Of a stretch of DNA of 32,996 nucleotides, positions 1,639 through 31,010 are shown piece by piece; positions within the stretch are counted from its first letter, which is position 1, and each line of letters opens with the position of its first letter. The notes under the pieces are model-generated. The model made no database searches, was not told where the DNA came from, and saw nothing but the letters and a program-made list of their open reading frames with translations. The DNA is from Candidatus Methanoperedens sp. (GTDB lineage Archaea > Halobacteriota > Methanosarcinia > Methanosarcinales > Methanoperedenaceae), in contig JAPZAO010000008.1 in assembly GCA_027460615.1 (NCBI GenBank), positions 1-32,996 on the forward strand. Reading direction: 5' to 3'. The position numbers and the translations under genes were made by a program.

Positions 1639-1670
1639 TGTTTTGTTAAAACTTTCCCAAAGTTTTATCA

Positions 1671-2579
1671 TCAATCACCGCGCCCCACTTCAAGCATCCT
1701 GTCAAGCGCCAGTTTTGCTTTTACCCTGATATCCTCCGGGATTTTTATTACGTGCTCGTTTCTCGTAAGTGCGCGGATTATACTCCCGAGCGTGTTCATT
1801 TTCATGTTCGGGCAGACAGCGTATCTCGTTGCAGGAAAAAAGGTCTTGTCCGGGTTTTCCTTGTTCAATCTGTGCAAAAGACCAAGCTCGGTTCCTATGA
1901 TAAACTCCTTTGAGGTCGATTGCCTGGCATATTTTAACATACCTGCTGTGCTCAATACCTGGTCTGCAAGCGCTACCACATCAGGCCTGCACTCGGGATG
2001 GACAAGGATTTCAGCATCAGGATGCTCTTCTTTCTCAAGCAAAATATCGCCGGGCAGTATCAGGTGATGGGTGGGGCAGTAGCCGTTCCAGGGAATGATT
2101 TTCTTATCCGTGTGGGCTGCAACATACAGGGCAAGGTTCCTGTCCGGGACAAAGATTATTTCGTTTTCCGGCAATGCATTCACAACTTTGACTGCGTTTG
2201 CCGATGTGCAGCATATATCGCTTTCAGCCTTCACAGACGCAGGCGTGTTCACGTAACAGACAACAGCAGCACCGGGATATTTTTCTTTTTCACATCTCAG
2301 GGATTCTGGGGTTATCATGGCTGCCATGGGGCACTGGGCTGAAAGTTCGGGCATGAGAACTGTTTTTTCAGGGTTAAGTACAGCCGCGCTTTCTGCCATG
2401 AAATCCACGCCGCAAAAAACGATAACATCTGCGCCGCTTGAGACTGCTTTCTGGCTTAAGCCGAATGAATCGCCAACAAAGTCAGCAATATCCTGCACAT
2501 CCCCGCGCTGGTAGTTATGGGCGAGAATGATTGCATTTCTTTCTTTTTTCAATTGTCTTATTCTTTCGACTTCATCCAT
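1671..2579 (-). CDS. nadA: Quinolinate synthase A
   Basis: This 302-aa enzyme condenses iminoaspartate with dihydroxyacetone phosphate to quinolinate in de novo NAD synthesis and carries an oxygen-labile [4Fe-4S] cluster. The three cluster cysteines are visible at C83 (SAQCPMAAM), C168 (NGYCPTHH) and C256 ([11 protein letters not shown]), spaced as in archaeal NadA. Also seen are the N-terminal [30 protein letters not shown] and the SSGAD segment. The compact length without N-terminal extension is typical of archaeal and thermophile enzymes. Partner genes nadB/aspDH and nadC are absent. The ATG at 2579 is used although the Shine-Dalgarno is weak. Confidence 0.97.
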
Positions 2580-2659
2580 ATTTCAGGGTCAAACATTATC
2601 CTATTGCTTAAATTGTTTTCTAACTTTCATGGCAATATTAAAGTGAATTGAAAGACTTT

Positions 2660-3319
2660 ATGGTTCATATGCAAAAGAACACGCGCCTCATCCTGGCTCT
2701 TGATGTTACAGATAAGAATGCGGCAGCTGCGATAGCAAAAGAGACAGCAGAGCATGTGGATGCCATCAAGATAGGCTATCCGCTGGTGCTTGGCGCGGGA
2801 CTTGCAATAATTGGCAGGATTTGTAAATTTGCGCATGTGATTGCGGATTTTAAGGTTGCCGATATCCCGAATACCAATAGGCTGATATGCGGCCAGGCAT
2901 TTGAAGCGGGTGCAAGCGCGGTAATCGTTCATGGTTTCACTGGGCGGGACAGCCTTCTTGAATGCGTAAAAACTGCAAGCGAATACGACGGGGAGATTTT
3001 TGTTGTCACGGAAATGAGCCATCCCGGAGCTATTGAGTTCATGGCGCCAAAGGCTCTGGAACTTGCCTCACTTGCGGTTGAATGCAAAGCTCAGGGCGTG
3101 GTAGCACCGGCAACGCGTCCCGAAAGAGTGGAAAAAATACGCAGCGTTGTGGGCGGGCTGACCATAATCTCACCAGGCGTGGGCGCGCAGGGAGGAAGCG
3201 CGGCAGATGCGATAACGGCGGGCGCGGATTATGTTATTGTTGGGCGGACTATTTATAATTCAAAGACACCCGGAAAAGAGGCTGAAAAGATAGCGAAAGA
3301 GATAGAAAAGTGCCGATGA
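2660..3319 (+). CDS. pyrF: Orotidine 5'-phosphate decarboxylase
   Basis: This TIM-barrel enzyme converts OMP to UMP, the last step of de novo pyrimidine synthesis. The signature [13 protein letters not shown] (residues 61-73) contains the catalytic D-x-K-x-x-D array, and LILALDVTD near the N-terminus and the phosphate-binding [10 protein letters not shown] and [12 protein letters not shown] loops complete the active site. The length (~219 aa) is that of the archaeal family. Start choice is uncertain: a TTG at 2648 and ATGs at 2660 and 2669 are in frame, and the family normally begins just before the LALDV strand. The stop codon is embedded in the C box of a candidate C/D sRNA. Confidence 0.95.
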
Positions 3320-3369
3320 TGAAACAAAACATGGCTGAAAAATGATGAGCCCTATGAGTACTGATGGCA
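3311..3369 (+). ncRNA. Candidate archaeal C/D-box 2'-O-methylation guide sRNA overlapping the pyrF 3' end
   Basis: The full canonical layout is visible: C box ATGATGA (3316-3322), a 12-nt guide (3323-3334), D' box CTGA (3335-3338), a 3-nt spacer, C' box ATGATGA (3342-3348), a second 12-nt guide (3349-3360), and D box CTGA (3361-3364). Flanking TGCC (3311-3314) and GGCA (3366-3369) can form the terminal stem next to the kink-turn. Both guides have the exact 12-nt spacing expected for archaeal sRNPs. By the N+5 rule the predicted targets are CCATG*TTTTGTT (Gm) and TACTC*ATAGGGC (Cm). The C box contains the pyrF stop codon, so it may be processed from the pyrF transcript. Confidence 0.62.
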
Positions 3370-3714
3370 TGAATCTATAGATATCTGAAAGCTATTTTTC
3401 AGCTTCGACAATTAACGGAACTGTATAGCCTGCGGTCTTATGAGATAGAGACGGTAGCGCAGTTACTTTTGAAGTTGTCTCCTCGAAGTTGCCCAATTTG
3501 CGGGAAGCGGTGAAGAGCTGGAAGAATTTTGAACGAGATATGCATAAGAAATACATTATTACCTATAAAAAGAGAAAAAATACTAGCAGATTGAAGTATT
3601 ATAAGGAAGGCTCAACGATGAGCCAGAACCCTTAAATAGGGGGTTATACATAAAATCTTATGTTATGAGTTCACCTTAAGGCATTAGGCTTAAGGTTGAG
3701 GTTTAGGTGGATGA
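3370..3714. other. Intergenic region upstream of the PRTase cassette
   Basis: About 345 bp without a convincing ORF. A third CTGA at 3385-3388 lies in the first bases after the sRNA. A perfect 9-bp pairing, GCTGAAAAA (3334-3342) with TTTTTCAGC (3395-3403), could fold over the sRNA or act as a terminator-like structure. A TATA-like TTAAATAG (3632-3639) and a perfect inverted repeat (3673-3696) precede the cassette. The middle (about 3410-3620) shows nothing I can identify. Confidence 0.5.
3673..3696 (+). promoter_or_regulatory. Perfect inverted repeat (putative operator or leader hairpin) of the PRTase cassette
   Basis: ACCTTAAG-GCATTAGG-CTTAAGGT: 8-bp perfect arms with an 8-nt spacer, ending 18 nt before the start codon at 3715. 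It is downstream of the TATA-like element, so it lies in the transcribed leader or over the start site. The first gene of the cassette encodes a winged-helix protein that could bind it; autoregulation is inferred. Confidence 0.4.
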
Positions 3715-4008
3715 ATGGAAAAGATGGAATCCAGAACAAAATTAATTTTGTCATTTCTAAAGAAAGAACCCTTCTATAAAATGTCGGATATAAAGGATGC
3801 ATTAGATAAAAATATTAAAGGACCAACAAGTGAGCCCAGAATTTCTGGAATAATGGTTATATTAGATGAATGTGGAATAATAGAAATTAATACAAAAACA
3901 AATAAATACCAATTGACCAGTTTAGGGGGGGAATTACTTAATTCCTTAGAAACCCATTCATTAAATGAAATATTAGAAAAAGGTATAAAAAATCTAAACA
4001 ATAAATAG
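3715..4008 (+). CDS. Small winged-helix protein, first gene of A/T-rich PRTase cassette
   Basis: The 97-aa product has the helix-turn-helix-wing pattern of archaeal winged-helix regulators: a helix with LILSFLKKEPFYKMSDIKDALD, a recognition-like segment EPRISGIMVILDECGIIEI, a beta wing TNKYQLTSLGGELL, and a C-terminal amphipathic tail. GGTGGATG immediately upstream provides a good ribosome-binding site. It is followed after 8 nt by the Zn-ribbon gene, suggesting one operon. The base composition is visibly more A/T-rich than the flanking pyrF and fprA genes, which suggests acquisition. A transcriptional regulator of the cassette is the likely role, but a structural DNA-binding role cannot be excluded. 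Confidence 0.6.
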   Translation: MEKMESRTKLILSFLKKEPFYKMSDIKDALDKNIKGPTSEPRISGIMVILDECGIIEINTKTNKYQLTSLGGELLNSLETHSLNEILEKGIKNLNNK

Positions 4009-4016
4009 GAGTAAAG

Positions 4017-4238
4017 ATGGATAAAAGAGTACTTGAACGAATAGACCGACTGAGGAAGGCTTTACCACAAAGAGATGTTAGATGTGCAAATTGTGGGCAG
4101 ACGATTTATGAAACAGTAACGGGTGCTGAGCCTACAGAGTCAGGAATCCATTGTAAAGCTTGTTTCATAAAAATTGTAGGGGAAGAAATGGAAGCCCATC
4201 CGGTATTCAAACCCTTACCTAAACCAACCATTTATTAA
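4017..4238 (+). CDS. Small zinc-ribbon protein, PRTase cassette
   Basis: The 73-aa protein has a helical N-terminus (RVLERIDRLRKALPQRD) followed by one zinc ribbon, CANCGQTIYE...HCKAC, giving two CxxC knuckles about 20 residues apart. The C-terminus is Pro-rich (PVFKPLPKPTIY). GGAG lies 8 nt before the ATG. It sits between the winged-helix gene (8-nt gap) and the PRTase/GNAT fusion (27-nt gap). I do not recognise the family. The arrangement suggests a protein- or nucleic-acid-binding accessory rather than an enzyme. Confidence 0.6.
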   Translation: MDKRVLERIDRLRKALPQRDVRCANCGQTIYETVTGAEPTESGIHCKACFIKIVGEEMEAHPVFKPLPKPTIY

Positions 4239-4265
4239 TTTTTTTGGTTCAGTTAAGGGATAAAA

Positions 4266-5183
4266 ATGGACAGTTACATTGATGAGACGGTATTTTCTAA
4301 ACTTCTACATTCACTTTCTGTGGAAATTAAGAAATATTATCCAGATAAACCTCCCATATTGGTTGGAGTTGGGATGTCAGGTTTAGAGGTCGTTGGCAGA
4401 TTACAAGAATATTTTGATCCAGAAATAGATCCACTCGTATGTGATGTAAAAGTTAATGAAAACAATGAAGTAATAGAAGTCATGGGTTTCCCAGAAAGTG
4501 AAGTAAAAGGGAAAGACATTTTAATTTGTTATACCCGTGTTGATACGGGTGGGCGGTTAGAAAAAATCGGAAAAAAGGCAATCAAAGCTGGTGTCAATAG
4601 TTTCAAAACTTTGAGTGTTGTTGTTCGAGAAAATGCAAGAATTTTTCCAAATTTTTATTCGTTCATGGTTAGAGATAATGATAATCCGATTTTTTTACTG
4701 GATAATTTTCCATCAACATTACCAAATCCATTCCCTCAAGTAAATTTAACCTGTTTAAATGGTTTTATTAGAAAATTTACAGAAGTGGATTTAGAAAGTA
4801 ATTGGTTTAAAAGCGGAGAAGACTGCATCGATAAATTTTTGCCGGATGATTATTACTACCAAATGATAACAAATAATAATACTCGTATATATGTCATTGA
4901 CAATGGCGAGAAGATCATAGGTATAGTCCAGATAACCGCCAAAGACGAAACAGAGTGGTGTATTGATGTTTTGGCAATAGATGTTAACGAGCAGAAAAAA
5001 GGATACGGCCCATGTCTTTTAAACTTTGTGACTGATTTATGTAGATTCAATGGCGTTAAATATATCAACTTATATGCTTTAGAGCGCCGTGTTCCATTTT
5101 ATGAGAAAAAATTTTTTAAAATAATAAAAAAAATAAAGTTATCTAGAAGTAATTTAATCGAAATGAGACGGAAAGTATTTTAA
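4266..5183 (+). CDS. Two-domain protein: type I phosphoribosyltransferase-like plus GNAT acetyltransferase-like
   Basis: The N-terminal half (~1-150) has a PRTase-like Rossmann layout: PPILVGVGMSGLEVVGRL, then the segment equivalent to the PRPP loop, DILICYTRVDTGGRLE, then KTLSVVV. The usual acidic pair of the PRPP motif (hydrophobic-DD/ED-xxTTGG) is replaced by Y-T, so PRPP catalysis is doubtful. The C-terminal half (~160-305) is GNAT-like: KIIGIVQITA, WCIDVLAIDVNEQKKGYGPC with the acetyl-CoA QxxGxG loop, and YALERRVPFYEKKFFK. AAGGGA precedes the ATG. It is the third gene of the cassette, 19 nt before the orotate-PRTase-like gene. I know no named family with this fusion; the function is inferred to be modification of a nucleotide-like product. 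Confidence 0.6.
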   Translation: MDSYIDETVFSKLLHSLSVEIKKYYPDKPPILVGVGMSGLEVVGRLQEYFDPEIDPLVCDVKVNENNEVIEVMGFPESEVKGKDILICYTRVDTGGRLEKIGKKAIKAGVNSFKTLSVVVRENARIFPNFYSFMVRDNDNPIFLLDNFPSTLPNPFPQVNLTCLNGFIRKFTEVDLESNWFKSGEDCIDKFLPDDYYYQMITNNNTRIYVIDNGEKIIGIVQITAKDETEWCIDVLAIDVNEQKKGYGPCLLNFVTDLCRFNGVKYINLYALERRVPFYEKKFFKIIKKIKLSRSNLIEMRRKVF

Positions 5184-5202
5184 GACAAATATTGGTGATC
5201 GA

Positions 5203-5982
5203 ATGAGCTGGTTGGAAGAAAAAGATGATTATGGGGCTGAAATCAGTAAAATCTTATATCAGGAGGGAATGATTCAAACTTGGATTAAGGATAGAGCAGA
5301 GGGATGGACTTTAAGAAATGGCTTATGGAGCCCATATTATATTCAATGTCGTCCAATAACTAGCAAAAAAATCAGCCAAAAGCTCTTAAAATTGATTGGA
5401 AATGCACTTGGCACATTGCTAAAAGAGGATACAGAAGGAATTACAAAAGTTATTGGTGTTCCGCTAACTGGAATACCTATAGCAACTTCCATTACCATGT
5501 GTGTTGGCATTCCTTCATGTAACGCCAGAGTAATTCCAAAGGTTAAAACTGTAGAGGATTTTCACAAAGCTGTAACTGAAGGAAAATTCGAAAAAGAAGA
5601 GTATGGAGATCACTCTCTAATAGAGGGCGATATCAATAATGGAGATAAATTTGTCATCGTTGATGATATTGTGACAGATTTTGGTACAAAAGTGGTTATT
5701 TTGGAACAAATTAAATATGTAGCAAAAATGAAGGATATAAAGATATATTGTAATGATGTCATGGTTCTGGTTGATAGAGAACAAGGATCGAGAGAAGCTG
5801 CGAATAAACTTGGAATAAATCTATATTCTTTAATTCCTTTCAAGACGAAGGGAATTCATTGGCTAAAGGATGTTTTAGATTCAGAAGAGTATAGCATCAT
5901 CGTAGATTATTTAAATAATCCAAATAAATATCAAAATACTAAACTGAAAGAAAAAGTAATTGCTCTCGCAAATAAAAAATGA
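5203..5982 (+). CDS. Orotate phosphoribosyltransferase-like protein (PyrE family), cassette member
   Basis: The 259-aa protein carries the PyrE-type N-terminal segment (TLRNGLWSPYYIQCRPI, compare SGxxSPYYIDxR of orotate PRTases), IGVPLTGIPIATSI, and the PRPP motif KFVIVDDIVTDFGTK with an intact DD pair. The usual TTGG is TDFG. A C-terminal extension makes it longer than ordinary PyrE. GGTGAT lies before the ATG. The stop overlaps (ATGA) the start of a 13-codon truncated ORF. PyrE activity would make OMP, the substrate of pyrF upstream, so it could be the cell's pyrimidine enzyme. Its A/T-rich composition and its partner genes argue instead for a dedicated side pathway. Confidence 0.72.
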   Translation: MSWLEEKDDYGAEISKILYQEGMIQTWIKDRAEGWTLRNGLWSPYYIQCRPITSKKISQKLLKLIGNALGTLLKEDTEGITKVIGVPLTGIPIATSITMCVGIPSCNARVIPKVKTVEDFHKAVTEGKFEKEEYGDHSLIEGDINNGDKFVIVDDIVTDFGTKVVILEQIKYVAKMKDIKIYCNDVMVLVDREQGSREAANKLGINLYSLIPFKTKGIHWLKDVLDSEEYSIIVDYLNNPNKYQNTKLKEKVIALANKK

Positions 5983-6020
5983 ACTATGAAGAATTTTTAA
6001 AAAATAAACATGAGGGGTAA
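5979..6020 (+). pseudogene. Truncated 13-codon ORF translationally coupled to the PyrE-like gene
   Basis: An ATG overlapping the stop of the upstream gene (ATGA) opens a frame reading MNYEEFLKNKHEG before TAA. The ATGA overlap is the usual coupling geometry for a further operon gene, and the first residues look like an ordinary protein N-terminus. The remaining gene is missing; the sequence immediately after belongs to the promoter of the next gene. A relic of a fifth cassette gene is the interpretation; chance is possible for so short a frame. Confidence 0.35.
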
Positions 6021-6091
6021 AATTCAGAACTCCTGCATTTTCACTTTCTCTTTTATGGTATGATCAAAACAAGCTCTGTTTAACTCTGAGC

Positions 6092-6118
6092 TTTCGGTAA
6101 CCGAAAAGAATAATATAC
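6092..6118 (+). promoter_or_regulatory. Palindrome abutting TATA box of the Cys-rich protein gene
   Basis: A perfect 7-bp inverted repeat, TTTCGGT-A-ACCGAAA (6092-6106), is followed 4 nt later by the TATA-like TAATATAC (6111-6118). The TATA is ~27 nt upstream of the ATG at 6140, so the message would be leaderless. The palindrome occupies the BRE position, where a bound regulator would interfere with or recruit TFB. Confidence 0.45.
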
Positions 6119-6139
6119 CTTCTCTGTATATCAAGATTG

Positions 6140-6286
6140 ATGCCATCTGAAAAATGTAACTTCTGCTCGGGAGAAAAATGCACCGCTGCAGACCTTGAAC
6201 CATGTGACTTCAAGGGAGAAAATTTCAAGGAATGCCTGCGCTACCGCCTTCACTTCATAAGACCGCAGTTTATGCAGTTGCGTTAA
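6140..6286 (+). CDS. 48-aa cysteine-rich small protein
   Basis: The frame reads MPSEKCNFCSGEKCTAADLE and continues to QFMQLR. It has five cysteines (C6, C9, C14, C22, C32) in 48 residues, a CxxCxxxxC start and a basic C-terminus. A metal- or Fe-S-binding role is likely, but I do not recognise the family. Support for the gene comes from its own palindrome/TATA promoter at the right distance for leaderless translation, and from its convergent position with the flavodiiron gene (4-bp overlap). Given the flanking FprA and rubredoxin, a redox-stress function is plausible but unproven. Confidence 0.5.
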   Translation: MPSEKCNFCSGEKCTAADLEPCDFKGENFKECLRYRLHFIRPQFMQLR

Positions 6287-7482
6287 CCCGATTTTACCAT
6301 TGAAGCTATTTTCTGCCCCAGCGCATAGCACTTCGCCATATCCTGATCATCTGGCCTGAAATTTACTTCCAGCGACTCAATTGGCTCGTATCCCGATGAT
6401 TTTAATTTTTCATTCACAGCCTTAACAGCCCCGCCTGCCCAACCGTAGGAACCGAAGGTTGCCCACAGCTTGTTCTTCGGCCGCAAGCCCATAAGATACG
6501 TCAGGAACCCGCCAACAGTCGGGAACATGCCATTGTTCAATGTGGGTGAACCGATAATTATTGCCCTGGCTTCAAGCACTTCTTTAACTATCTCGCTCCA
6601 GTCATTCTTGCGCAGGTGGAATAGCGCAGCCTCCACTCCAGAATCAGCCGCTCCTCTCAGGATTTCATTGGCCATTATCTCGGTGCTGTTCCACATGGTA
6701 TCATAAACGACAAGCACTTTCTGCTTCGAGACCCCTTGAGCCCATTTGAGATATGCATCTATTATCTTTGCCGGGGTTGTCCATATCATGCCGTGCGATG
6801 GCGCTATCATCTTAATCTCGATGCCCGGTTTCTGGAGCTCCTCTATTTTTTTAAGGATAATACCAGCGAATGGCATCAGGATGTTGGCATAATACTTGGC
6901 GGCCTCGTCCATTACGGTATCGCATTCGTATCCAAGGAGACTGCATAAATCTTCATCAAACCTGAATGAGGAGGCAAGGTGCTGCCCGAAGCCGTCGTTT
7001 GACAGGAGGATTTTATCCTCTTTCAGGTAGGTGAACATGCTGTCAGGCCAGTGGAGCATCGGCGCAGTGATGAAGAACAGCGTCTTTTTGCCAAGCGCCA
7101 GTTCATCTCCTGTCTTAACAGTCCTGAAATTCCAGTTTGTCCTGTAATGCCGCAACAACCCCTCTTTTCCTTTTTCAGTTGCAATAACCTGGGCATTTAC
7201 TGCTATTTTCATTATCTTGGGGAGGGAACCCGAATGGTCCATTTCAACATGGTTTGAGACGATGTAATCAATCTTCGAAGGGTCTATAATCTCCCTTATT
7301 CTTTCTATCATCTCGCCTGCAAAGGCATGTTTTACGGTATCTACAAGCGCAATTTTATCATCGACTATTAGATATGCATTATACGTTCCCCCGCGCAGCG
7401 TCGTGTAACCGTGGAAATCACGCAGGTTCCAGTCCACGACCCCAACCCAGTAAACGCCGTCTGTTAATTCAATTTTAGCCAT
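6283..7482 (-). CDS. fprA: Flavodiiron protein, F420H2 oxidase type
   Basis: The ~399-aa A-type flavoprotein reduces O2 (or NO) to water at a diiron site, protecting anaerobes. The metallo-beta-lactamase domain has NHVEMDHSGS (diiron ligands H78, E80, D82, H83), H144 in MLHWPDSM, D163 in SNDGFG and H230 in PSHGMIW. From residue ~255 a flavodoxin domain follows, with the FMN loop VYDTMWNSTE and later GSPTLNNGMFP. In methanogen relatives the electron donor is reduced F420. The ATG at 7482 is preferred because GTGGGA lies ~6 nt upstream; in-frame ATG 7488 and GTG 7494 are alternatives. It is divergent from rubredoxin, the usual electron partner of bacterial homologues. Confidence 0.94.
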   Translation of the reverse strand: MAKIELTDGVYWVGVVDWNLRDFHGYTTLRGGTYNAYLIVDDKIALVDTVKHAFAGEMIERIREIIDPSKIDYIVSNHVEMDHSGSLPKIMKIAVNAQVIATEKGKEGLLRHYRTNWNFRTVKTGDELALGKKTLFFITAPMLHWPDSMFTYLKEDKILLSNDGFGQHLASSFRFDEDLCSLLGYECDTVMDEAAKYYANILMPFAGIILKKIEELQKPGIEIKMIAPSHGMIWTTPAKIIDAYLKWAQGVSKQKVLVVYDTMWNSTEIMANEILRGAADSGVEAALFHLRKNDWSEIVKEVLEARAIIIGSPTLNNGMFPTVGGFLTYLMGLRPKNKLWATFGSYGWAGGAVKAVNEKLKSSGYEPIESLEVNFRPDDQDMAKCYALGQKIASMVKSG

Positions 7483-7585
7483 ATTCATTCCCACGAATAG
7501 CTATTTATCTCAATGGGATAATAGCTTTTGGTATGCATGAGAGTATGACTTATTCTTCAAGAGCTTTATTAAAACGAGGTGAAAT

Positions 7586-19636: not shown

Positions 19637-22576
19637 TTAGCGACAGGGATATTCACTTTCTTCATCTTTCCTCCCTTTTGATCTCAACGGAAGTGAGAAC
19701 GTAAAAGTACTGCCCCCACCGTACCTGCTTTCTGCCCGGATTCTGCCCCCATGCAGTTCCACAAGCTGCTTTGAAATCGCAAGCCCAAGCCCGGTGCCTC
19801 CGGTTTTCCTACCGATTTCGAGCTGCTGGAACTTGGTGAACAGTTTCCCCAGATCTTTTTCCTGTATTCCTACGCCGGTATCTGAAACTGAGATTTCCGC
19901 CATATCATCCGTTTTCTTTGTTGTTATGGTTACAGTTCCCCCTTCTTCCTTGCTGAATTTCACGGCGTTATCGAGCAGGTTAAAAAGAATCTGTTTGAAC
20001 TTTGTCTTGTCAGCCTCTATAACGTCAAGCCGGGGATCAAATTCTTTGTTAAGAATTACCTTATGCCTGGCAGCTTTTTCTTTTATCAGGACGAGAACAT
20101 CATCCGTGACTGAAGGTACAGAGATTTCTTCAATTGCCAGTTCTATTTTTCCCGCTTCTATCTTGGAAATGTCGAGAATATCATCAATAAGAGCATGCAG
20201 GTGCTTGCTGCTTGAAAGAACATTATCCACAAAATGCTCCTGCTTTTCATTCAATTCCCCGGGCATCTTTTGCTTCAGGAGTTCTGAAAAACCAATGATG
20301 GAATTCAGCGGGGTGCGGAGGTCGTGGCTCATGCTTGCGAGAAACTCGGATTTTGCCTGGTTTGCATACGCAAGGCGTTCGTTTTCGAGGCGTATTTCTT
20401 CTGCCCGCTTGCGCTCGGTGATGTCCCAGATGATGCCGTTAATCCTCGCTGGCCGGCCATTATCATCGCGCACCAATCTGCCGCGGGCGGTGATGTAATG
20501 GACGCTCCCGTCAGGCCAGACCGCGCGGTACTCCGGTTCGTACAGCACATCCTGCCCGATAGTCCGGGCCAGTGCCGCTTTGATTGTCTCCCGGTCGTCA
20601 GGATGAACCGCCCCGAAGAACTCCTCTGCGGCCCCTGTAAACGTCGCGGGATTGATCCCAAGAATATGACAGACCTGGTCATCAAAATAGCGTCTGTTCT
20701 CGATGATATCCCAGTGCCACACGCCCATGAGGGCTGACCGCAGCGCAAGGTCGAGCCGCGCCTTGTTCTCGCGCAACGCGTCCTCTGCCTGCTTGCGCTC
20801 CTGCTCCTGCCGGTCTCTTTGCAGCCTTGCGTTAAGGATGGGCGCGATATTGTTGGCGATGCTATCGAGCAAATCCATATCTTCCCGCGTGTAGCTCCGG
20901 TCGCTATTGGCTACTGAAATTTGCCCGATGGTCTCGTTTCCAAAGACAATCGGCACCACGAGAAAATGATCAATGTGAATGTGACCCTCGGGTGTGTGAA
21001 AGGGCCCATCGGAACAGAACGCCCTTTTCTCTCTGATCGCTCTCCCCCAGAGGCTATCTCCCCATGTAGCCGGCGGAAAGACAATTGACTTGTCAGGTAC
21101 CTGGCATTCACTCCAGATTCCTCTGGTCATACTTGGAATGACTTCGTCCCCGTTTTCCGCTATGAATCCAAACAGGCCGAACTTGCTCTCCATCACCTCC
21201 AGAACAACCGCCAGCACCTCCCCGTACATCTGTTCGTCGGGGATGGTGAGAAAGACGTTGGCGATCCGATTCAGGATGGTCTTTCTCCGTTCAGACAACC
21301 GCAGTTCCTCCTCAGCCTTCTTGCGCTCAATGATATCCCATGCCAGGTCAGCAAGCGTAGAAACGGTTCTTATATCAGCATCATCATAGTTTGTCTTCTT
21401 GTTTCCCACCCCAAGAATAGCACGTATCTTCTCGCCGGTGATGACAGGTACAACAAGCTCTCGCACCACCTTTGCATGTCCCGGAGGAAGCCCTTTTTTG
21501 TGGGGAAGTGCTTCGTAGTCGTTATGTATCACAGGTCCCCTTTTGTGGAAGCAGTCCACCCATACCCCTGCATCGCTTATCGGATAATGCGTGCCCTTGC
21601 CTTCGGCTGTACACATTGTCGCAAGCGTATTGGTTGACCACATCTGTAGGCGCAATGATATCTGGTCGTCATCGACATAATGGAAGAAACCGATGCAGCT
21701 TCCGGTGAGTCGCTCAACCTCGTCAAGTGTGAACCGGAGGAGTTCATCCTCTGAATGTGCTGCGGCAAATTCGCTGATATAGACTCTGGATTTCAGGACA
21801 TCCTCTGCCAGCTTGCGTTCGGTGATATCGCGAATCATGACAAGGTCGGCGGGTTTGCCCTTATAGCTTATGACACCAGCGTTGATCTCTATGTGCACCA
21901 CGGTACCATCTTTTCGCAAGAGAGCCGTCTCATATATCGGCGGGACGGCCTCGTTAGCTATGCGCCGCTCGTAGCGCTCCATAACTTTGTCACGTTCATT
22001 GGGATGTATATGTTGTATAATGGGAGTTTCGAGCAACTCCTCCTCACTGCCGCCCCACAGTTCCGCCAGGCGCACATTGGCGAATTTGACCAACCCATCC
22101 TGAATGATGAGAATGCCATCATTTGACCGTTCTACCAGGTTTCGGTACTTTTCCTCACTCTCCCGCAGTGCCTCCTCCGCACGCTTGCGCTCCTGCCTCA
22201 CCTGTACATCGCGCAGCTCCCGCTCAATTGCAGGGACAAGCCTTGCTAAATTGCCTTTCGTGATATAATCGTGCGCACCGGCTTTCATCGCTTCCACTGC
22301 GATATCCTCCCCTATTTTGCCGGATACGATGATGAAGGGCAAATCGAAGCCGCTTTTTTGCAGCAGTTTCAAGGCATCAATCCCGCTAAAGCGAGGCATG
22401 ACGTAATCTGAAATAATGATATCCCAGGTCTGCCTTGCAAGCGCCGCGCTCATGGCTTCGGGAGTATCCACGCGTTCGTACGCGGGGTCAAAGCCGCCGC
22501 GCCGAAGTTCCCGCAAAAGCAGCAATGCGTCGTTTTCAGAATCCTCGACTATCAGTACGCGAATCGGTTTGCCCAT
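19637..22576 (-). CDS. Hybrid sensor kinase REC-PAS-GAF-GAF-PAS-HisKA-HATPase
   Basis: The 979-aa soluble signalling protein has these domains in order. An N-terminal receiver (1-122) has acceptor D57 in IIISDYVMP, S85 and K107. PAS (~140-258) carries the ITERKLAEDV linker. Two GAF domains follow (~270-425, ~440-600). A second PAS (~620-735) ends in WDITERKRAEE. HisKA has H751 in SMSHDLRTPLNS, and HATPase has LLDNAVKFSKEEG, DTGVGI and GGTGLGLAI. No TM helix is seen, so it is cytoplasmic. With its receiver at the front, it is probably a downstream relay that also senses small ligands or redox through GAF/PAS. It follows the other REC-headed protein after 66 nt. Confidence 0.93.
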   Translation of the reverse strand: MGKPIRVLIVEDSENDALLLLRELRRGGFDPAYERVDTPEAMSAALARQTWDIIISDYVMPRFSGIDALKLLQKSGFDLPFIIVSGKIGEDIAVEAMKAGAHDYITKGNLARLVPAIERELRDVQVRQERKRAEEALRESEEKYRNLVERSNDGILIIQDGLVKFANVRLAELWGGSEEELLETPIIQHIHPNERDKVMERYERRIANEAVPPIYETALLRKDGTVVHIEINAGVISYKGKPADLVMIRDITERKLAEDVLKSRVYISEFAAAHSEDELLRFTLDEVERLTGSCIGFFHYVDDDQISLRLQMWSTNTLATMCTAEGKGTHYPISDAGVWVDCFHKRGPVIHNDYEALPHKKGLPPGHAKVVRELVVPVITGEKIRAILGVGNKKTNYDDADIRTVSTLADLAWDIIERKKAEEELRLSERRKTILNRIANVFLTIPDEQMYGEVLAVVLEVMESKFGLFGFIAENGDEVIPSMTRGIWSECQVPDKSIVFPPATWGDSLWGRAIREKRAFCSDGPFHTPEGHIHIDHFLVVPIVFGNETIGQISVANSDRSYTREDMDLLDSIANNIAPILNARLQRDRQEQERKQAEDALRENKARLDLALRSALMGVWHWDIIENRRYFDDQVCHILGINPATFTGAAEEFFGAVHPDDRETIKAALARTIGQDVLYEPEYRAVWPDGSVHYITARGRLVRDDNGRPARINGIIWDITERKRAEEIRLENERLAYANQAKSEFLASMSHDLRTPLNSIIGFSELLKQKMPGELNEKQEHFVDNVLSSSKHLHALIDDILDISKIEAGKIELAIEEISVPSVTDDVLVLIKEKAARHKVILNKEFDPRLDVIEADKTKFKQILFNLLDNAVKFSKEEGGTVTITTKKTDDMAEISVSDTGVGIQEKDLGKLFTKFQQLEIGRKTGGTGLGLAISKQLVELHGGRIRAESRYGGGSTFTFSLPLRSKGRKDEESEYPCR

Positions 22577-22580
22577 CTAT
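22196..22580 (-). repeat. REC-module direct repeat, copy 1
   Basis: This ~385-bp segment encodes the N-terminal receiver of the 979-aa kinase and is nearly identical in nucleotide sequence to 23363-23747. Differences are scattered substitutions, mostly synonymous. It is a recent intragenomic duplication of the receiver module and its start context. Confidence 0.9.
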
Positions 22581-22642
22581 GTTCTCCCGAATACATTAAA
22601 TCTATTAACCACAATTCCTTATTTCCTTGCACGTCTTTATTT

Positions 22643-23743
22643 TCATGATTGTTCACCTGGCGGAAGCGTGAAGTAAAATGTCGAACCCTTACCGGGCTGT
22701 GATTCCACCCAGATTCTCCCGCCGTGCCGTTCAACTATCTTCTTGCAGATTGCCAGGCTCATCCCTGCGCCCGGTTCTTTGCCGTGCACACGCTCGGATA
22801 TGAGAAAGATGCGGTCGTGATACTGCGGGTCTATCCCGATGCCGTTGTCGCAAATCGAGAATACCCATTCATTTTCCTTTTGCTCTGCATTAATATGAAC
22901 GCGCGGCGGCTTATCGCCACGGAACTTGATGGCGTTATCTACCAGGTTATGGAACAACTGGACAAGCTGGAGTTCGTCAGCCACAACAGTTGGCAGGGGA
23001 ACGCTTGTAACCACCGCGCCGCTTTTCCTGATAACAACCTCCAGGTTGGCAAGCGCGCGGTTCAATATAACGGAGCAGTCTACTGGTTCTTTGCGGGTAG
23101 CCATCCGCGAATATGCCAACAGGTCATTAATTCTTTTCTGCATCCGTGCGATTCCATCTATGGCGGATGCAATGAACTCGTCAGCATCCTTATCGCAGCC
23201 TTTAAAACGGCGCTCTATCAATTGCAGATTGTCGGATACTACGTGCAATGGCTGCTGCAGGTCGCGCGAAGCGAGATGGACAAATCGTTCCAGTTCAGCG
23301 TTGGAACGGGCTAATGCATTCAGGGTTTGTTTTAACTCAGCCTCTTTCCGCCCGCGTTCCCGCCTCACCTGTACATCACACAGCTCCCGCTCAATTGCAG
23401 GGATAAGCCTTGCTAAATTGCCTTTAGTGATGTAGTCGTGCGCACCGGCTTTCATCGCTTCTACTGCTATATCCTCCCCTATTTTGCCGGATACGATGAT
23501 GAAAGGCAAATCGAAGCCGCTTTTTTGCAGCAGTTTCAGAGCATCCATCCCGCTAAAGCGGGGCATAACGTAATCGGAGATAATGACATCCCATGTCTGC
23601 CTTGCAAGCGCCGCGCTCATGGCTTCGGGAGTATCCATGCGTTCGTACGCGGGGTCATAGCCGCCGCGCCGAAGTTCACGCAAAAGCAGCATCACATCAT
23701 CCTCGGAATCCTCGACTATCAGTACGCGAAGCGGTTTTCCCAT
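22643..23743 (-). CDS. REC-HisKA-HATPase protein with Arg in place of the phospho-acceptor His
   Basis: The 366-aa protein has a receiver (1-122, D57 in VIISDYVMP), a coiled linker, and a HisKA segment ERFVHLASRDLQQPLHVVSD. The family normally has ASHDLQ(E/Q)PL; here position 160 is Arg (codon CGC, one base from CAC). An ATPase domain with NLVDNAIKF and DNGIGI follows, but the G2 loop GTGIGL is GAGMSL. The N-box and G1 box are intact. It is best read as a degenerate kinase that may scaffold or modulate its paralogue downstream. The receiver is almost identical to that of the 979-aa kinase. Confidence 0.88.
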   Translation of the reverse strand: MGKPLRVLIVEDSEDDVMLLLRELRRGGYDPAYERMDTPEAMSAALARQTWDVIISDYVMPRFSGMDALKLLQKSGFDLPFIIVSGKIGEDIAVEAMKAGAHDYITKGNLARLIPAIERELCDVQVRRERGRKEAELKQTLNALARSNAELERFVHLASRDLQQPLHVVSDNLQLIERRFKGCDKDADEFIASAIDGIARMQKRINDLLAYSRMATRKEPVDCSVILNRALANLEVVIRKSGAVVTSVPLPTVVADELQLVQLFHNLVDNAIKFRGDKPPRVHINAEQKENEWVFSICDNGIGIDPQYHDRIFLISERVHGKEPGAGMSLAICKKIVERHGGRIWVESQPGKGSTFYFTLPPGEQS

Positions 23744-23747
23744 CTAT
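23363..23747 (-). repeat. REC-module direct repeat, copy 2
   Basis: This is the counterpart of 22196-22580, encoding the receiver of the 366-aa protein, in the same orientation. The repeat boundary lies just after the receiver, where the two proteins diverge, consistent with domain duplication rather than whole-gene duplication. Confidence 0.9.
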
Positions 23748-23802
23748 ACACTCCTGGATATTTTAAGTCTAAAAACAGCGGATGAACGCAGATACCCGTC
23801 AT

Positions 23803-23940
23803 CTAAGCTCTCCTTTTCGATGGCATGGGTTCATTTATGAGCAGCCAGTAAATTCCAAGTTGTTTCACCGCATCCATGAACTGGTTAAAATCCACAGGTT
23901 TGCGAATGTAGCTGTTGCAGCCCCGTTTGTAGCCGTTCCT
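23803..23940 (-). pseudogene. C-terminal fragment of a CheY/Rcp1-type response regulator, cut at the junction
   Basis: Reading from ~23,940 toward 23,803 gives [20 protein letters not shown] then [20 protein letters not shown] and SKRRA. This is the well-known C-terminal third of phytochrome-type receivers (NSYIxKPVDFxQFxxAVxxLGxYWLLxNE), including the conserved K-P. The first ~95 residues, with the phospho-acceptor Asp, are missing. It lies 60 nt before the REC-headed proteins on the same strand, so it would have been the first gene of the signalling operon. It ends where unrelated bacterial coding sequence begins. Confidence 0.85.
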
Positions 23941-23945
23941 GGACA
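23932..23945. other. Junction between archaeal and bacterial sequence
   Basis: Response-regulator similarity on the minus strand can be followed up to about 23,940. Radical SAM similarity on the plus strand starts at about 23,942 ([20 protein letters not shown]). Both genes lack their 5' portions and face each other with no spacer. No terminal repeat, IS end, integrase or tRNA is present. Gene content changes from archaeal to bacterial exactly here. A mis-join during assembly is the simplest cause; a true recombination event is less likely. Confidence 0.75.
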
Positions 23946-25162
23946 GAAAAGAAGCCATCCGAAAAGCGTTGGCGATAAAGGCGGAGGTGATCGGTATTTA
24001 TTGTATGGTGAGCATGTTGGATGAATGTTTGTGGTTCGCTGAGCAACTGCGTCTTCACTGCCGGCTGCTGGTCACCGGGGGACCGCTGCCTACCTGCGAC
24101 CCCGAACCTTTTTTGGAAGCTTTCGATGTGGTTGTGCGCGGAGAAGGAGAGCAGACCATGCAAGAACTCCTGCGCGCCCAAGAAGAAGCGTCCGAACTGG
24201 AATCCATCGCCGGGATCGTTTACCGAACAGATGCAGACTGGCCAGCAAAGGGCAAGCTTATTTATACCCCGGACCGGGAGTTTGCGAAGGAACTGGACCG
24301 GATCCCATTTCCCGCCCGCGCATTGCTCCCAAACGAAAGCTACATCCGCTACGCAAAGAAAAAGTATGGCTACTCGATCACTACGCTGATGAGCACGCGT
24401 GGCTGCCCGTTTCGCTGTGAGTTCTGCAGCAACGTGGTTTTCGGCGGCTCCTACCGCGAGCGCTCACCTCAGAATGTCGTTGACGAGATCGAAGCGGCGC
24501 TTGGGTTGGGATATGATCGAATTTCGTTCGCGGATGATGTGTTCACGATGAAAAAAGGTCGTGTGATCGGCATATGCCAGGAGATCAGGCGTCGAGGGCT
24601 GCATTTCAACTGGGAATGCCTTGGCAGGGTAGATGCCTTGGATTACGCCCTGGCTCGGGAGATGAAAGAGGCTGGCTGCACGCGAATCTACTTCGGGATC
24701 GAATCCGGCAGCAATCAAATCCTCGAGCTGATGAATAAAAAGATCACGACTGACGAGGCGCTTCGGGCTGTAAACGACGCACATCGGGCAGGTCTCCAGG
24801 TTGGGGCTTTCTTCATCCTGTGTTACCCAGGCGATACGGATGATACCGTACTCCAAACGATCCATTTTGCGACCGCGCTGCCTCTCGACTACCTCGGATT
24901 GAGCATGCCCTATCCGCTCCCCGGAACGGACCTCTACAAAAGGATCAAAGACCGGATCACCCGCGACTGGCATCCGGATGACAGCCCGTTCGGAAGTCAC
25001 GTGCTGATATTCAATGCAGATTTTTCCGAGGCTAAAATGTGGTTCGGGATTATGAAAGGGCACGCGCAATTTGCGATTAAGAGAAAAATGGGAAAACTGG
25101 CGCCCCTGCTTTTAAACCTCTTCGAGAAGCCTACTGATGCTATCTTCAGGCTCATGAGATAA
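23942..25162 (+). CDS. B12-binding-domain radical SAM protein, 5'-truncated at the junction
   Basis: The frame enters mid-domain ([20 protein letters not shown], then [10 protein letters not shown] and [15 protein letters not shown]), the second half of the cobalamin-binding domain. The radical SAM cluster motif [14 protein letters not shown] follows, with C146/C150/C153 counted from the TTG at 23969. [20 protein letters not shown] and the C-terminal substrate region come next. Members make anaerobic methyl transfers or ring rearrangements; this product cannot be named. About 60-70 N-terminal residues are missing by comparison with the paralogue at 25192-26517. The TTG is an ORF artefact, not a real start. 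Confidence 0.9.
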
Positions 25163-25191
25163 ATAGACGGCACCCACACAAGGGCAGAAAA

Positions 25192-26517
25192 TTACTTTTT
25201 CTTATCTGCAAAGGCCTGCATGGTCTCGTCTATCCGGCGTCGCAACCATTGCGGATCGAACTCGGATTCGTAAACGAAAGTAGTTTCGTTCTCCACATTC
25301 CAATCTTTGTTATGATCCACTTTATTTACCCTCTCAAACAACTGCGAACCGGGCAGGGGAAAGGGAACGTTGAAAGAGATGTAATCCAGCGGGAGCTCCA
25401 AAGCGAATTGGAAGGTGTCTTCGATAGCTGGAACGGTTTCTCCGGGATAACCGACAATAAAAAAAGCAGCTACTTCGATGCCAGCCTTATGGAACAGTTC
25501 AACGGCGTTTTTCCCTTCTTCGAGGGTAGCTTGTTTTTTAATCATTTTGAGGGTGTCCTGGTTTCCAGTTTCCAGGCCCAGGTAGACTCTCCGGCAACCG
25601 GATTCCTTCATCAGCCTCGTAATTTCCTCATTAATGCCTGTAACGCGCGAGAGGCAGCTCCATTGGATCTTTTGACCTGCTATGCGCCGGCAGAATTCCT
25701 GGAGATAGCGCATATCCAGGGTAAAGTTATCGTCGGCGATCCACAGGCTGTCATAACCCAGGCGGCGGATTTGCTCGATCTCCTCGAACACCGCATCCAG
25801 GTTTCGGCGGCGGAATAAATTGCCAAAGATCGGTCGGGAGCAAAAATCACAGTTGAATGGACACCCGAGTGTTGTGATGATCGAGGTCGTCTTCGTGCCA
25901 TCCAGCTGGTGCCACACCTCCTGATAAGCCGAATGGTCGAAGTCTCCCCGGTATGGAAGCGGAAAGGCGTCAAGCTCCTTTTCCCGGTAATGAATCAGCG
26001 GATTTTCCAACCGCAAGCCATCCTGATGTATGAAAAGCCCCTCATATTTATGGAGTGGTAATTCATTTAATTGCAGGCGGGAATATTTTTGATCCAAGAG
26101 GTCATGACAAAAACGAGGAAAACTCAGGTCGACTTCGCCTCGAAATACAACGTCGAAGGCTGCGCAGTAATGTTCGGGATAGAGCGTAGGCAAAGGTCCG
26201 CCGGCAACCAGCAGGCTATCAGGAAGGTTCGTTCTCAACATCCTGGCGATTTGGAAGGTGTTACGGCTCAAGGTCACCATCGAATATATCCCAACAATAT
26301 CCGGGTGGTACGAGCTTATTTTTTTCTGAATTTCTTCGAAGGTCTCGAATGTGCAATCGAATATCTTTGATTCGATCCCAAGTACATGAAGCTGACTGAC
26401 CAGACTGGCCGCGCCAAGCGGTGGAAATAGAAGCTCGGTCGCAGATCTGGTCCTGAAGTATGGATAAACCAAAGCGACTCGGGACAACTCTTTAGATTTC
26501 TGTATGGATGAGGTCAT
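25192..26517 (-). CDS. B12-binding-domain radical SAM protein, full length
   Basis: The ~441-aa protein has an N-terminal cobalamin-binding domain (RVALVYPYFRTRSATELLFP, IVGIYSMVTLSRN, LLVAGGPLPTLYPEHY, DVVFRGEVD). The radical SAM core has TTLGCPFNCDFCSRP (C219, C223, C226), and VYLGLETGNQDTLKMIKKQA and FFIVGYPGET follow. Reaction unknown; relatives include methyltransferases and hopanoid or Mg-protoporphyrin cyclase-type enzymes. It is convergent with, and clearly a paralogue of, the truncated protein at the junction. The start at MTSSIQKSKELSRV (26517) is favoured over the longer frame to 26538. Confidence 0.92.
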   Translation of the reverse strand: MTSSIQKSKELSRVALVYPYFRTRSATELLFPPLGAASLVSQLHVLGIESKIFDCTFETFEEIQKKISSYHPDIVGIYSMVTLSRNTFQIARMLRTNLPDSLLVAGGPLPTLYPEHYCAAFDVVFRGEVDLSFPRFCHDLLDQKYSRLQLNELPLHKYEGLFIHQDGLRLENPLIHYREKELDAFPLPYRGDFDHSAYQEVWHQLDGTKTTSIITTLGCPFNCDFCSRPIFGNLFRRRNLDAVFEEIEQIRRLGYDSLWIADDNFTLDMRYLQEFCRRIAGQKIQWSCLSRVTGINEEITRLMKESGCRRVYLGLETGNQDTLKMIKKQATLEEGKNAVELFHKAGIEVAAFFIVGYPGETVPAIEDTFQFALELPLDYISFNVPFPLPGSQLFERVNKVDHNKDWNVENETTFVYESEFDPQWLRRRIDETMQAFADKKK

Positions 26518-26636
26518 TATGAAAAGTGCCTTAAGCAAACCACCAAAAGTATTTTAACTTAAAGAGGCACATGGTTTGCTTTGGTGATTAGCTGTTTGGA
26601 ACTCGCCTGAAGTTAAAATATTTTCAGCCAATCACA

Positions 26637-27104
26637 TTAGATACCGAAGACGAACGCTGCGAGATAAACGATCACACCGAACAATGTGGCTACCATATAA
26701 AGTGTATAGGATGTCCTCATAAACAGCTTGTAGTTTTTGAAACGCAGGCCTTTTGGCACCAGCTCATTGCCTCGCAGGACAACGAATATTCCCAGCAGGA
26801 GCCCGGTCATCCCGACGATGGCGTGAACCGTCGTGACGCCATAGTCACCCTCCAGAAGCTTGCCTGGAATCCCAGGGAGGATGTGGACGAGGAATGAATT
26901 GATCATCACGCTAAGAACAACCAGGGCATTCAAACAAGCGGTCACAGTCTGAACCCAGCGATGGGCCTGAAAATGCTTGCGTCTGGCCAACTGCCACCCA
27001 ATGGTGAACAATATGGCTGTAAGCAAGATCAAGATAAGGCTTAGATCAGAAAGGAATTTGGCTTTCGTCCCGAGAAACCCGGCCTGATTAAGGAAATTAC
27101 CCAT
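26637..27104 (-). CDS. DUF420 family membrane protein
   Basis: The 155-aa protein has four to five TM helices (LILILLTAILFTIGWQL, NALVVLSVMINSFLVHI, VHAIVGMTGLLLGIFVVL, TLYMVATLFGVIVYLAAF) and conserved histidines in AHRWVQT and TVHAIVG. The pattern is that of DUF420 proteins, often found near cytochrome oxidase assembly genes in bacteria. No oxidase gene is near here. The stop is directly followed by ~100 bp before the radical SAM gene. Function is unproven; heme or copper handling is the family suggestion. Confidence 0.8.
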   Translation of the reverse strand: MGNFLNQAGFLGTKAKFLSDLSLILILLTAILFTIGWQLARRKHFQAHRWVQTVTACLNALVVLSVMINSFLVHILPGIPGKLLEGDYGVTTVHAIVGMTGLLLGIFVVLRGNELVPKGLRFKNYKLFMRTSYTLYMVATLFGVIVYLAAFVFGI

Positions 27105-27198
27105 AGAAATTCTCCCTATTATAATCTCATTTGTCCAGCTATGCTGTAAATTGGAGCTTTCAAAAAATCAGAAATCCCCATTTTCACCAGCCTCTGCC

Positions 27199-27210
27199 CG
27201 CCCCGGGGCG
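27199..27210. terminator. GC-rich palindrome between tryptophanase and DUF420
   Basis: CGCCCCGGGGCG is a perfect 12-bp palindrome, flanked by CCAG (27187-27190) and CTGG (27211-27214) that extend the hairpin. It sits ~40 nt past the tryptophanase stop. It may end that transcript, although a T tract is lacking on the minus strand. Confidence 0.35.
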
Positions 27211-27249
27211 CTGGAAAAGAGGATTTTGGGGTAGACGATAAGAATGTTC

Positions 27250-28626
27250 CTATACCGGTTCAAACCTGGCTGTAAAGTGCCTCAGCAATTTCGGTGCATA
27301 GGTAAAGCGATAGCCGCGAATCTCTTGCTTTCGGGCGGCAATTTTAACCAGTGTCTCGGCGACGTAGTCCAGGTGGGACTGGGTATAAACACGGCGGGGG
27401 ATGGCGAGGCGCACCAGCTCGAGCGAAGGATAAGCCATGACGCCGGTCTCAGGGGAGGGGTGAGCGAACATGACGGAGCCGATCTCGACGGCACGGATGG
27501 CGCCCTCCCGGTAAAGCTCAACAGCCAGCGCCTGGCCAGGGAAGGCGGACTGGGAGATGTGCGGCAGCAGGCGGCCGGCATCCAGGTAAACGGCATGCCC
27601 ACCGGGAGGCTCGATGATGGGGATGCCGGCTTCTAAGAGCCTCTCCGCCAGATAAGCGGTTTGACGAAGTCGGTAAGCCAGGTAATCTTCATCCAGCCCT
27701 TCCCAAAGGCCGGCAGCCATCGCGTCCAGATCGCGACCAGCCAGACCGCCGTAGGTGGGGAAGCCTTCGCGCAGGATCAGCTCGTTACATGCGCGCTGGA
27801 AGAGGGATTCATCGTTCATGGCGAGGAAGCCGCCGATGTTGACGATGGCATCTTTCTTGGCGCTCAGCGTAGCGCCATCCGCTAGAGCGAAGATCTGGCG
27901 GGCGATTTCGAGGGTAGTTTTCTGGCTGTAACCGGGCTCGCGCAGCTTGATAAAGTAGGCATTTTCGGCATAACGGCAGGCGTCGATGATGAAAGGAATT
28001 CCGAATTCTTTATACGTGCTGGCAACCGCGCGCAGGTTTTCTAATGAAACGGGCTGTCCGCCGCCGGCGTTGTTAGTGATGGTGATCATGCCGAAGGGGA
28101 TGTTCTGGGATCCGACTTCCTGGATAAAGCTGCGCAGCTTATGGATATCCATGTTGCCCTTAAAAGGGTGGCGATTGGTGGGTTCGTCGGCTTCGTCGAT
28201 GACCAGGTTGGCAGGGAGACCGCCGCGGGCGCGAATGTTGGCGTAGGTGGTGTCGAAGTGCATGTTGGAGGGGATATAATGACCGTCTTTGACCAACAGG
28301 GCGCTGAGGATGTTCTCAGCGGCGCGGCCCTGGTGGGTGGGGACGAAATACTTGAAGCCGAAGATGCTTTTGACGGCTTCCTCGAGGCGGAAATAGGAGC
28401 GCGCCCCAGCATAGGATTCATCTCCCTGCATCAAAGCTGCCCATTGGTGCTGACTCATTGCGCCGGTGCCCGAGTCAGTCAGCAGGTCGATGAAGACGTC
28501 TTCGGCACGCAGTCCGAATACGTTGAAGCCAGCTTGCCTGAGGGCTTTTTCACGCGCCTCACGATCGATGAGGCGGATGGGCTCGACCATCTTGATGCGG
28601 AAGGGTTCGGGGGGATAGATGGGCAT
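27250..28626 (-). CDS. tnaA: Tryptophanase (beta-eliminating lyase)
   Basis: This 458-aa PLP enzyme cleaves L-tryptophan to indole, pyruvate and ammonia. Seen are [35 protein letters not shown], the PLP lysine in [13 protein letters not shown] (K257/K258), and the C-terminal [16 protein letters not shown] and LRHFTARFE. The segment IRAVEIGS matches tryptophanases; tyrosine phenol-lyase has RSMERG there with its specificity Arg. The ATG at 28626 has GGAG 5 nt upstream. A longer open frame to 28857 has no homologous N-terminus and is rejected. No tnaC-like leader or indole transporter is seen. Confidence 0.93.
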
Positions 28627-28837
28627 GGGGGCTCCTTGGTTCGTCATGTAGTCAAGCAGTCGTGTGGTCGGTTGGTCGTGTGGTTTGGTGTTTTGATAGT
28701 ATGCCTGGGTAATCGCAACTCTTCTAAACCAATCTGGGTTCATGTCGTTTGAGGTCTTCCCCCAGTTTAACATAGGAAGCAGTTTGATTCCAGTCATGCT
28801 TATCAGGTATTGGGGGTGATGCATGTCCTGAAGTGGG

Positions 28838-28843
28838 TATAAT
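28838..28843 (+). promoter_or_regulatory. TATAAT -10 box placing a leaderless start at the MBL gene
   Basis: A perfect bacterial TATAAT ends 6 nt before the ATG at 28850. The transcript would therefore start at or next to the A of the ATG, and no Shine-Dalgarno is seen. Such spacing is typical of leaderless mRNAs. No convincing -35 is present. Confidence 0.5.
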
Positions 28844-28849
28844 TGGCGC

Positions 28850-30999: not shown

Positions 31000-31010
31000 T
31001 TTTATTACCT

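Follow-up and report, generated by a model that had tools for sequence, protein, structure and literature searches.

The locus considered here raises the question of whether four tightly packed, A/T-rich genes of an uncultured methane-oxidizing archaeon form a functional unit and, if so, of what kind; the defense and stress modules of these archaea are little known. The genes come from contig 8 of a Candidatus Methanoperedens MAG of 2.39 Mb (82% complete, 5% contaminated), and the window, meaning the whole stretch of DNA that was analyzed, covers 32,996 nt. Four open reading frames, all on the forward strand, occupy positions 3715-4008, 4017-4238, 4266-5183 and 5203-5982 and are separated by gaps of exactly 8, 27 and 19 nt, as set out in a preliminary description of this DNA. 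That description had also given each gene its own ribosome-binding site. Clear Shine-Dalgarno-like sites were found for three of the genes (AGGTGG, GGAG and GGTGAT), but the start of the third gene is preceded by no more than a weak AAGGGA. The reported A/T-richness was borne out by a GC content of 0.328, against flank values of 0.468 (left) and 0.446 (right) and a value of 0.463 for the window, and just 0.5% of window stretches of equal length are as strongly A/T-rich. The longest open reading frame encodes 305 aa, compared with 134 aa in 200 mononucleotide shuffles of the segment. Chance open reading frames were ruled out by the existence of orthologs and by dN/dS values.

The first gene (3715-4008, +) encodes a winged-helix protein of 97 aa, a putative regulator of the cassette, with a weak HTH_45 match; its ortholog at the same position in the Methanosarcinales genome SMBSF02 (G058) matched an HTH_5/ArsR-type HTH with an E value of 1.1e-5. 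A Zn-ribbon protein of 73 aa with a CxxC...CxxC pattern is encoded by the second gene (4017-4238, +), and its 12 homologs, all located before the fusion gene, share four invariant Cys together with G55, E59 and P62. The product of the third gene (4266-5183, +) is a fusion of 305 aa, in which Pfam, profile searches and AlphaFold/Foldseek identified a PRTase domain at about aa 5-150 (Pfam E 1.5e-8) and a GNAT domain at about aa 165-305 (Pfam E 6.4e-9). The fourth gene (5203-5982, +) encodes a PyrE-like PRTase of 259 aa with DD and DREQG motifs, assigned by a PDB profile search and a tree of orotate PRTases (OPRTs). The earlier PRTase and GNAT calls were therefore supported by Pfam, but those of the winged helix and Zn ribbon gave weak HMM matches in this copy and are backed by conserved orthologs. 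The last three proteins matched no PADLOC model, and the winged helix gave weak CARF/Csa3 matches alone. The literature searched held no description of this gene set, in line with the earlier statement that no described system with it is known. The cassette joins PRTase and acetyltransferase-like parts in a previously undescribed way, and from its features we infer a function below.

The cassette lies between two host genes. On the left is pyrF, encoding OMP decarboxylase (2648-3319, +; NCBIfam PRK13813, 300 bits over the cut-off), which 29 of the 31 genomes in the genus carry and whose end is overlapped by the C/D-box sRNA sR41 (3312-3366, +; Rfam RF01126, 55.9 bits with a gathering threshold of 54). 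On the right is a gene for an FprA-type flavodiiron protein with ODP and flavodoxin domains (6283-7494, −), which is syntenic in congeners. The closest congener, G010, has an empty pyrF–fprA site, where window positions 1653-3369 and 6099-7544 align to L093 508-2222 and 2224-3669, and this alignment defines the insert as the 2729 nt from 3370 to 6098. Insertion starts 3 nt past sR41, an sRNA that is found at the same spot in G010 (L093 2165-2220) and G006 (L096 2162-2217). Other congeners carry different genes here: G016 has one of HepT type, and G006 has a ParE toxin together with a VapB-like antitoxin. The spot is a hot spot for toxin–antitoxin genes. No tRNA that could have been an integration target was found adjoining any cassette copy.

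Some further features of the site and contig were observed. In G006, a 28-nt near-copy of the sR41 3′ end, resembling an attachment-site repeat, lies past the inserted toxin–antitoxin genes (L096 3128-3154). On either side of the cassette lie the arms of an inverted repeat (about 80 nt, 77.5%; window 3412-3489 and 6207-6286), the right arm adjoining the fprA 3′ end, and the intergenic segment seems to be inverted in G023 and G028. The window is syntenic with Methanoperedens over 1-7.5 kb. Over 19637-32996, GC climbs from about 0.40 to 0.50-0.60, and genes of bacterial type are found in the tail, encoding a beta-eliminating lyase (27250-28857), RNase Y (29461-30999) and RecX (31011-31712); the contig is possibly chimeric or joined to a contaminant, which leaves the cassette unaffected.

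The cassette is a discrete, horizontally mobile and conserved gene module of Methanosarcinales. The preliminary description would have been refuted had the four genes never occurred together elsewhere, but all four were found in identical order and strand in G058 and in the Methanosarcinaceae genome CSMAG_2122 (G507), and the four-gene form comprises three genomes in two lineages, the window and G058/G507. Relative to the window copy, the fusions of G058 and G507 are 29-30% identical and the PyrE-like proteins 48%. Compared with each other, these two copies are 89.5% identical at the DNA level along 2153 nt, a stretch that starts about 65 nt upstream of the first gene and runs to the last stop codon; their flanks are unrelated and their host families differ, which shows that the cassette moved as a unit. 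The dN/dS values between them were 0.16, 0.62, 0.27 and 0.22 for genes one to four. Neighbors of the G058 cassette include HsdM, a YhcG PDDEXK nuclease and a weak AbiEii match.

A shorter form, in which a Zn ribbon of 50-56 aa is paired with an intact fusion of 307-310 aa and the other two genes are missing, was identified in eight genomes, namely five Methanoperedens together with G034, G086 and G509. Ca. M. nitroreducens carries this core pair, and the congeners found through the fusion include Ca. M. nitroreducens ANME-2d and Mnv1. Relative to their hosts, these two-gene forms are rich in A/T (fusion GC 0.32-0.37), and the homologous block of the five Methanoperedens pairs stops no more than 16 nt from the stop codon of the fusion. 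The dN/dS of 0.06-0.11 among these five intact pairs indicates that the two-gene form is under strong purifying selection. No obvious defense-island setting was seen at the loci of G006, G015 and G020. G011 (L088 2270-3028) also has the two-gene form, but there an in-frame deletion, either real or an assembly artifact, takes the PRPP-motif region of the fusion and leaves the GNAT.

In an alignment-based scan of 84,980 species, ten fusion loci were recovered, all of them archaeal; nine are named as Methanosarcinales, its families or Methanoperedens, and the exception is G011 (Euryarchaeota). A profile search with the fusion across 186 genomes of the order matched 13, and one across 394 genomes of the phylum gave no further fusions, its matches of about 230 aa being rejected as PRTase-only. 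Nothing was retrieved by single-sequence scans of genome contigs and viral contigs with the fusion, or by alignment scans of viral contigs with the fusion and the PyrE-like protein. The cassette has so far been found restricted to a few methane-metabolizing archaea.

When the fusion profile was compared with solved structures, the top match was the Pyrococcus purine PRTase 1vdm (E 1.8e-16), with further matches to Sulfolobus GpT-1, PyrR, HGPRTs and PRPP synthetase, and to GNATs on the C-terminal half. Archaeal and bacterial purine PRTases such as 1vdm and GpT-1 thus head the matches of the N-terminal domain, but the cassette protein differs from them in having a GNAT attached and, in the four-gene forms, in having lost the acidic pair. 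Across fusion members, Pfam recognized the PRTase in 10 of 11 and the GNAT (Acetyltransf_1) in all 11. A PRTase-CE match was weak (best E 8.7e-4, 7 of 11 members) and was set aside, as the literature searched yielded no paper describing PRTase-CE. A Foldseek search with the AlphaFold model (pLDDT 72.5) paired the GNAT half with Ard1 and numerous other GNATs, including 4pv6 (E 3.5e-9), with TM-scores of 0.74-0.80 depending on the target, placing it in the GNAT fold by structure as well as by profile.

Alignment of 11 fusions showed that Tyr89-Thr90 (codons at 4530-4535, +) replace the PRPP acidic pair in the window copy. The preliminary description had correctly noted this loss and the intact DD of the adjoining PyrE-like PRTase, but the loss is confined to four-gene copies. 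At the PRPP motif, the window has CYTRVDTG, and G058 and G507 have CDSIINTG, at variance with an active type I PRTase, whereas all two-gene forms keep DD or ED (CDDTTITG, CEDTTITG or CEDTVISG). Degeneration of the motif was seen only alongside a separate OPRT, a thin correlation given three genomes from two lineages. Motif A of the GNAT, the acetyl-CoA loop, is canonical in the window copy (QKKGYG, 4992-5009, +) and intact there only; in the other ten aligned fusions its central Gly is replaced by Lys, Arg or Asn, the two-gene forms having Lys or Arg except for one with Asn. The G058 and G507 fusions are degenerate at both sites, and none of the 11 fusions combines a canonical PRPP motif with a canonical acetyl-CoA loop. 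Because the loop is degenerate in all but the window copy, the GNAT may have a different ligand or lack activity. Two cysteines of the PRTase domain, Cys59 and Cys88 in the window copy, are shared without exception by the 11 fusions; one stands directly before the acidic pair, and they possibly form a metal or redox site.

The lack of any copy with both motifs canonical weakens the earlier proposal that the cassette makes and acylates a nucleotide-like small molecule. In such a pathway, the OPRT-like enzyme would couple PRPP with a base-like substrate to give a product that the GNAT then acylates, and the winged helix and Zn ribbon would be regulators. The DD and DR motifs of the window OPRT and the QKKGYG of the window GNAT agree with this scheme, but the two-gene forms have degenerate acetyl-CoA loops and no OPRT, and the 2.73-kb insert has no kinase, phosphatase, exporter or Ter gene. 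The last of these matters for the resemblance to the Ter-linked modules for nucleoside-signal biosynthesis reportedly described by Anantharaman, Iyer and Aravind in 2012. In the passage on Ter operons in PMC7824862, such operons have more than one PRTase each and a nucleotide-like signal is proposed; the cassette likewise has more than one PRTase, and its two PRTase-type proteins and transferase resemble these signal-making operons. However, a GNAT fusion and a Zn ribbon do not figure in that passage. As already remarked in the preliminary description, Ter genes are missing: TerB, TerC, TerD, TelA and HAD are absent from the 2729-nt insert, which has four genes only, and no Ter-type genes were seen beside the G058 or G507 copies. 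We consider a small-molecule pathway unlikely.

A different use of the GNAT domain was found in G054, which encodes a protein of 774 aa (L089 7781-10105) at the locus occupied by the two-gene form in G034. The N-terminal domain of this protein matched nothing in Pfam; after it come an nSTAND3 NTPase domain (E 4.5e-21) and, at the C-terminus, a GNAT of the same family as that of the fusion (E 1.9e-53 to the fusion profile). The protein is followed by a Zn-ribbon tail-like stretch. STAND NTPases are typical of conflict systems, and the presence of the GNAT on one of them favors an effector role for this domain. This re-use, the small gene before a larger effector, the toxin–antitoxin hot spot and the defense neighbors in G058 together suggest that the cassette is an accessory stress or defense module, mobile and with a toxin–antitoxin-like layout, a reading drawn from sequence to which we assign a probability of roughly 0.4. 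Against this reading stand the lack of PADLOC matches for the last three proteins, the degenerate acetyl-CoA loop of all copies except that of the window, the G006, G015 and G020 loci with their lack of an obvious defense-island setting, and the small number of four-gene genomes behind the motif correlation.

In the mechanism that we propose for this module, the Zn ribbon and the PRTase-GNAT fusion would be the core pair, to which the four-gene form adds the winged helix and the OPRT-type enzyme. The GNAT domain would be the effector, the HGXPRT-like domain would serve as input for a PRPP or nucleotide ligand or as a scaffold, and the small upstream Zn ribbon would be a partner holding or targeting the fusion. 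Autoregulation of the operon would fall to the winged helix. Where all four genes are present, PRPP chemistry would have been handed to the separate OPRT, which would make or consume the ligand, and the PRPP site of the fusion would have decayed, leaving its domain as a scaffold or sensor. It is more doubtful whether the module is, specifically, an archaeal conflict system of a new class, in which a PRPP or nucleotide ligand read by the PRTase domain restrains the Zn-ribbon-bound PRTase-GNAT, the OPRT of the four-gene form makes or consumes this ligand and nSTAND3 is an alternative sensor. If the PRTase gates the GNAT, the module would show in a simple form how nucleotide metabolism can be wired to an effector, and would also be a natural experiment in which PRPP chemistry moved from a fused domain to a separate enzyme. 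Its compactness, its edges defined to the nucleotide, the empty site and the core pair of Ca. M. nitroreducens make the module testable.

PRTase folds have also been reused as regulators, as in PyrR, PurR and GfcR, and the fusion could accordingly be a PRPP- or nucleotide-sensing regulator that tunes pyrimidine or nucleotide metabolism. Its profile matches to PyrR and PRPP synthetase, the winged helix of the four-gene form and the two invariant cysteines are compatible with sensing of this kind. However, a metabolic sensor fits poorly with the patchy distribution and with insertion as a unit at unrelated sites, and it leaves the re-use of the GNAT on an nSTAND3 NTPase unexplained, which makes it improbable.

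Among known systems, the proposed stress or defense module resembles GNAT toxin–antitoxin pairs of the TacT/AtaT type in its GNAT fold, small upstream gene and location at a toxin–antitoxin hot spot, and the GNAT of the fusion has an N-terminal FxCG-like stretch that we take to be a resemblance to this type. The R/Q-x-x-G-x-G/A acetyl-CoA loop of GNAT toxins is present in the window copy, with the central Gly replaced in the ten others. In contrast to these pairs, the partner is a Zn ribbon and not an RHH/HTH antitoxin, a winged helix occurs in the four-gene form only, and the GNAT is fused to a PRTase. In type III retrons, a PRTase and a winged-helix protein likewise occur together in a mobile, defense-linked cassette (PMC12548924). 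Adjacent PRTase and winged-helix proteins in a mobile cassette are found here as well, but with the addition of a Zn ribbon, the GNAT fusion and a second, OPRT-type PRTase. For the reverse transcriptase that type III retrons require, the insert has neither an open reading frame nor room, and for a retron ncRNA the sole Rfam match in 3200-6500 was sR41, outside the insert.

The PyrE-like protein allows another explanation, in which it is the working OPRT of the organism beside pyrF and the other three genes are passengers. Its nearest NCBIfam family is pyrE (TIGR00336), at 58.9 bits and below the cut-off of 106.8, and its nearest relatives in the PDB profile search were orotate PRTases, with the OPRT domain of human UMP synthase (2wns) at E 2.6e-20. 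It shares with PyrE the DD, DR..G and (W)TL..G..SP.Y motifs, and conforms to the DD, DR..G and (F/W)TL..G..S..Y pattern in an alignment of 24 OPRTs. It differs from PyrE in its sub-cut-off score, in an extended catalytic loop, and in being accessory beside a canonical pyrE in two carriers; the catalytic-loop Lys is lost in the window copy. Its AlphaFold model, built from three sequences, was unusable (pLDDT 41.5).

The preliminary description had pointed to a second pyrE, and to clustering with housekeeping PyrE, as the observations that would bear on such a role. The window MAG has no other pyrE over the cut-off, but the assembly is missing the entire conserved pyrE neighborhood (IleRS, carS and queC), so that the absence is an assembly gap; replacement of pyrE in this species was ruled out on the same ground. 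Canonical pyrE is present in G058, G507 and 33 of 34 relatives. In the tree of 24 OPRTs, the cassette copies, on long branches, stand apart from canonical Methanosarcinales pyrE but join the apparent sole OPRT of the MCR-encoding family f10 (100/100). When the phylum was searched with a profile of the PyrE-like protein, close relatives turned up throughout f10 (E about 1e-78 to 1e-91) and weak ones elsewhere.

In all ten f10 genomes tested (seven of them at least 90% complete), the PyrE-like protein was the top match, and no canonical pyrE over the TIGR00336 cut-off was found in these ten (within L131-L144). Given this absence and the OMP-decarboxylase homolog that adjoins the PyrE-like gene in G162, the PyrE-like protein is very probably the working OPRT of f10 genomes. 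A housekeeping role for the cassette copy draws on this lineage, with its sole OPRT in ten of ten genomes and the adjoining homolog in one, and on the lack of another pyrE in the window assembly. Nevertheless, that lack reflects the assembly, G058 and G507 have both genes, the branches are long and the window copy has lost its catalytic-loop Lys, and the four genes travel together; an ordinary pyrimidine gene with three passengers is therefore very unlikely. The housekeeping orotate-PRTase lineage of one archaeal family thus has a close relative on a mobile cassette in others. Being below the TIGR00336 cut-off, the f10 OPRT may be missed as pyrE by databases. McrA was found in three of five f10 genomes tested, one of which has a CCx4Cx5C patch, presumably of the kind known for ANME-1.
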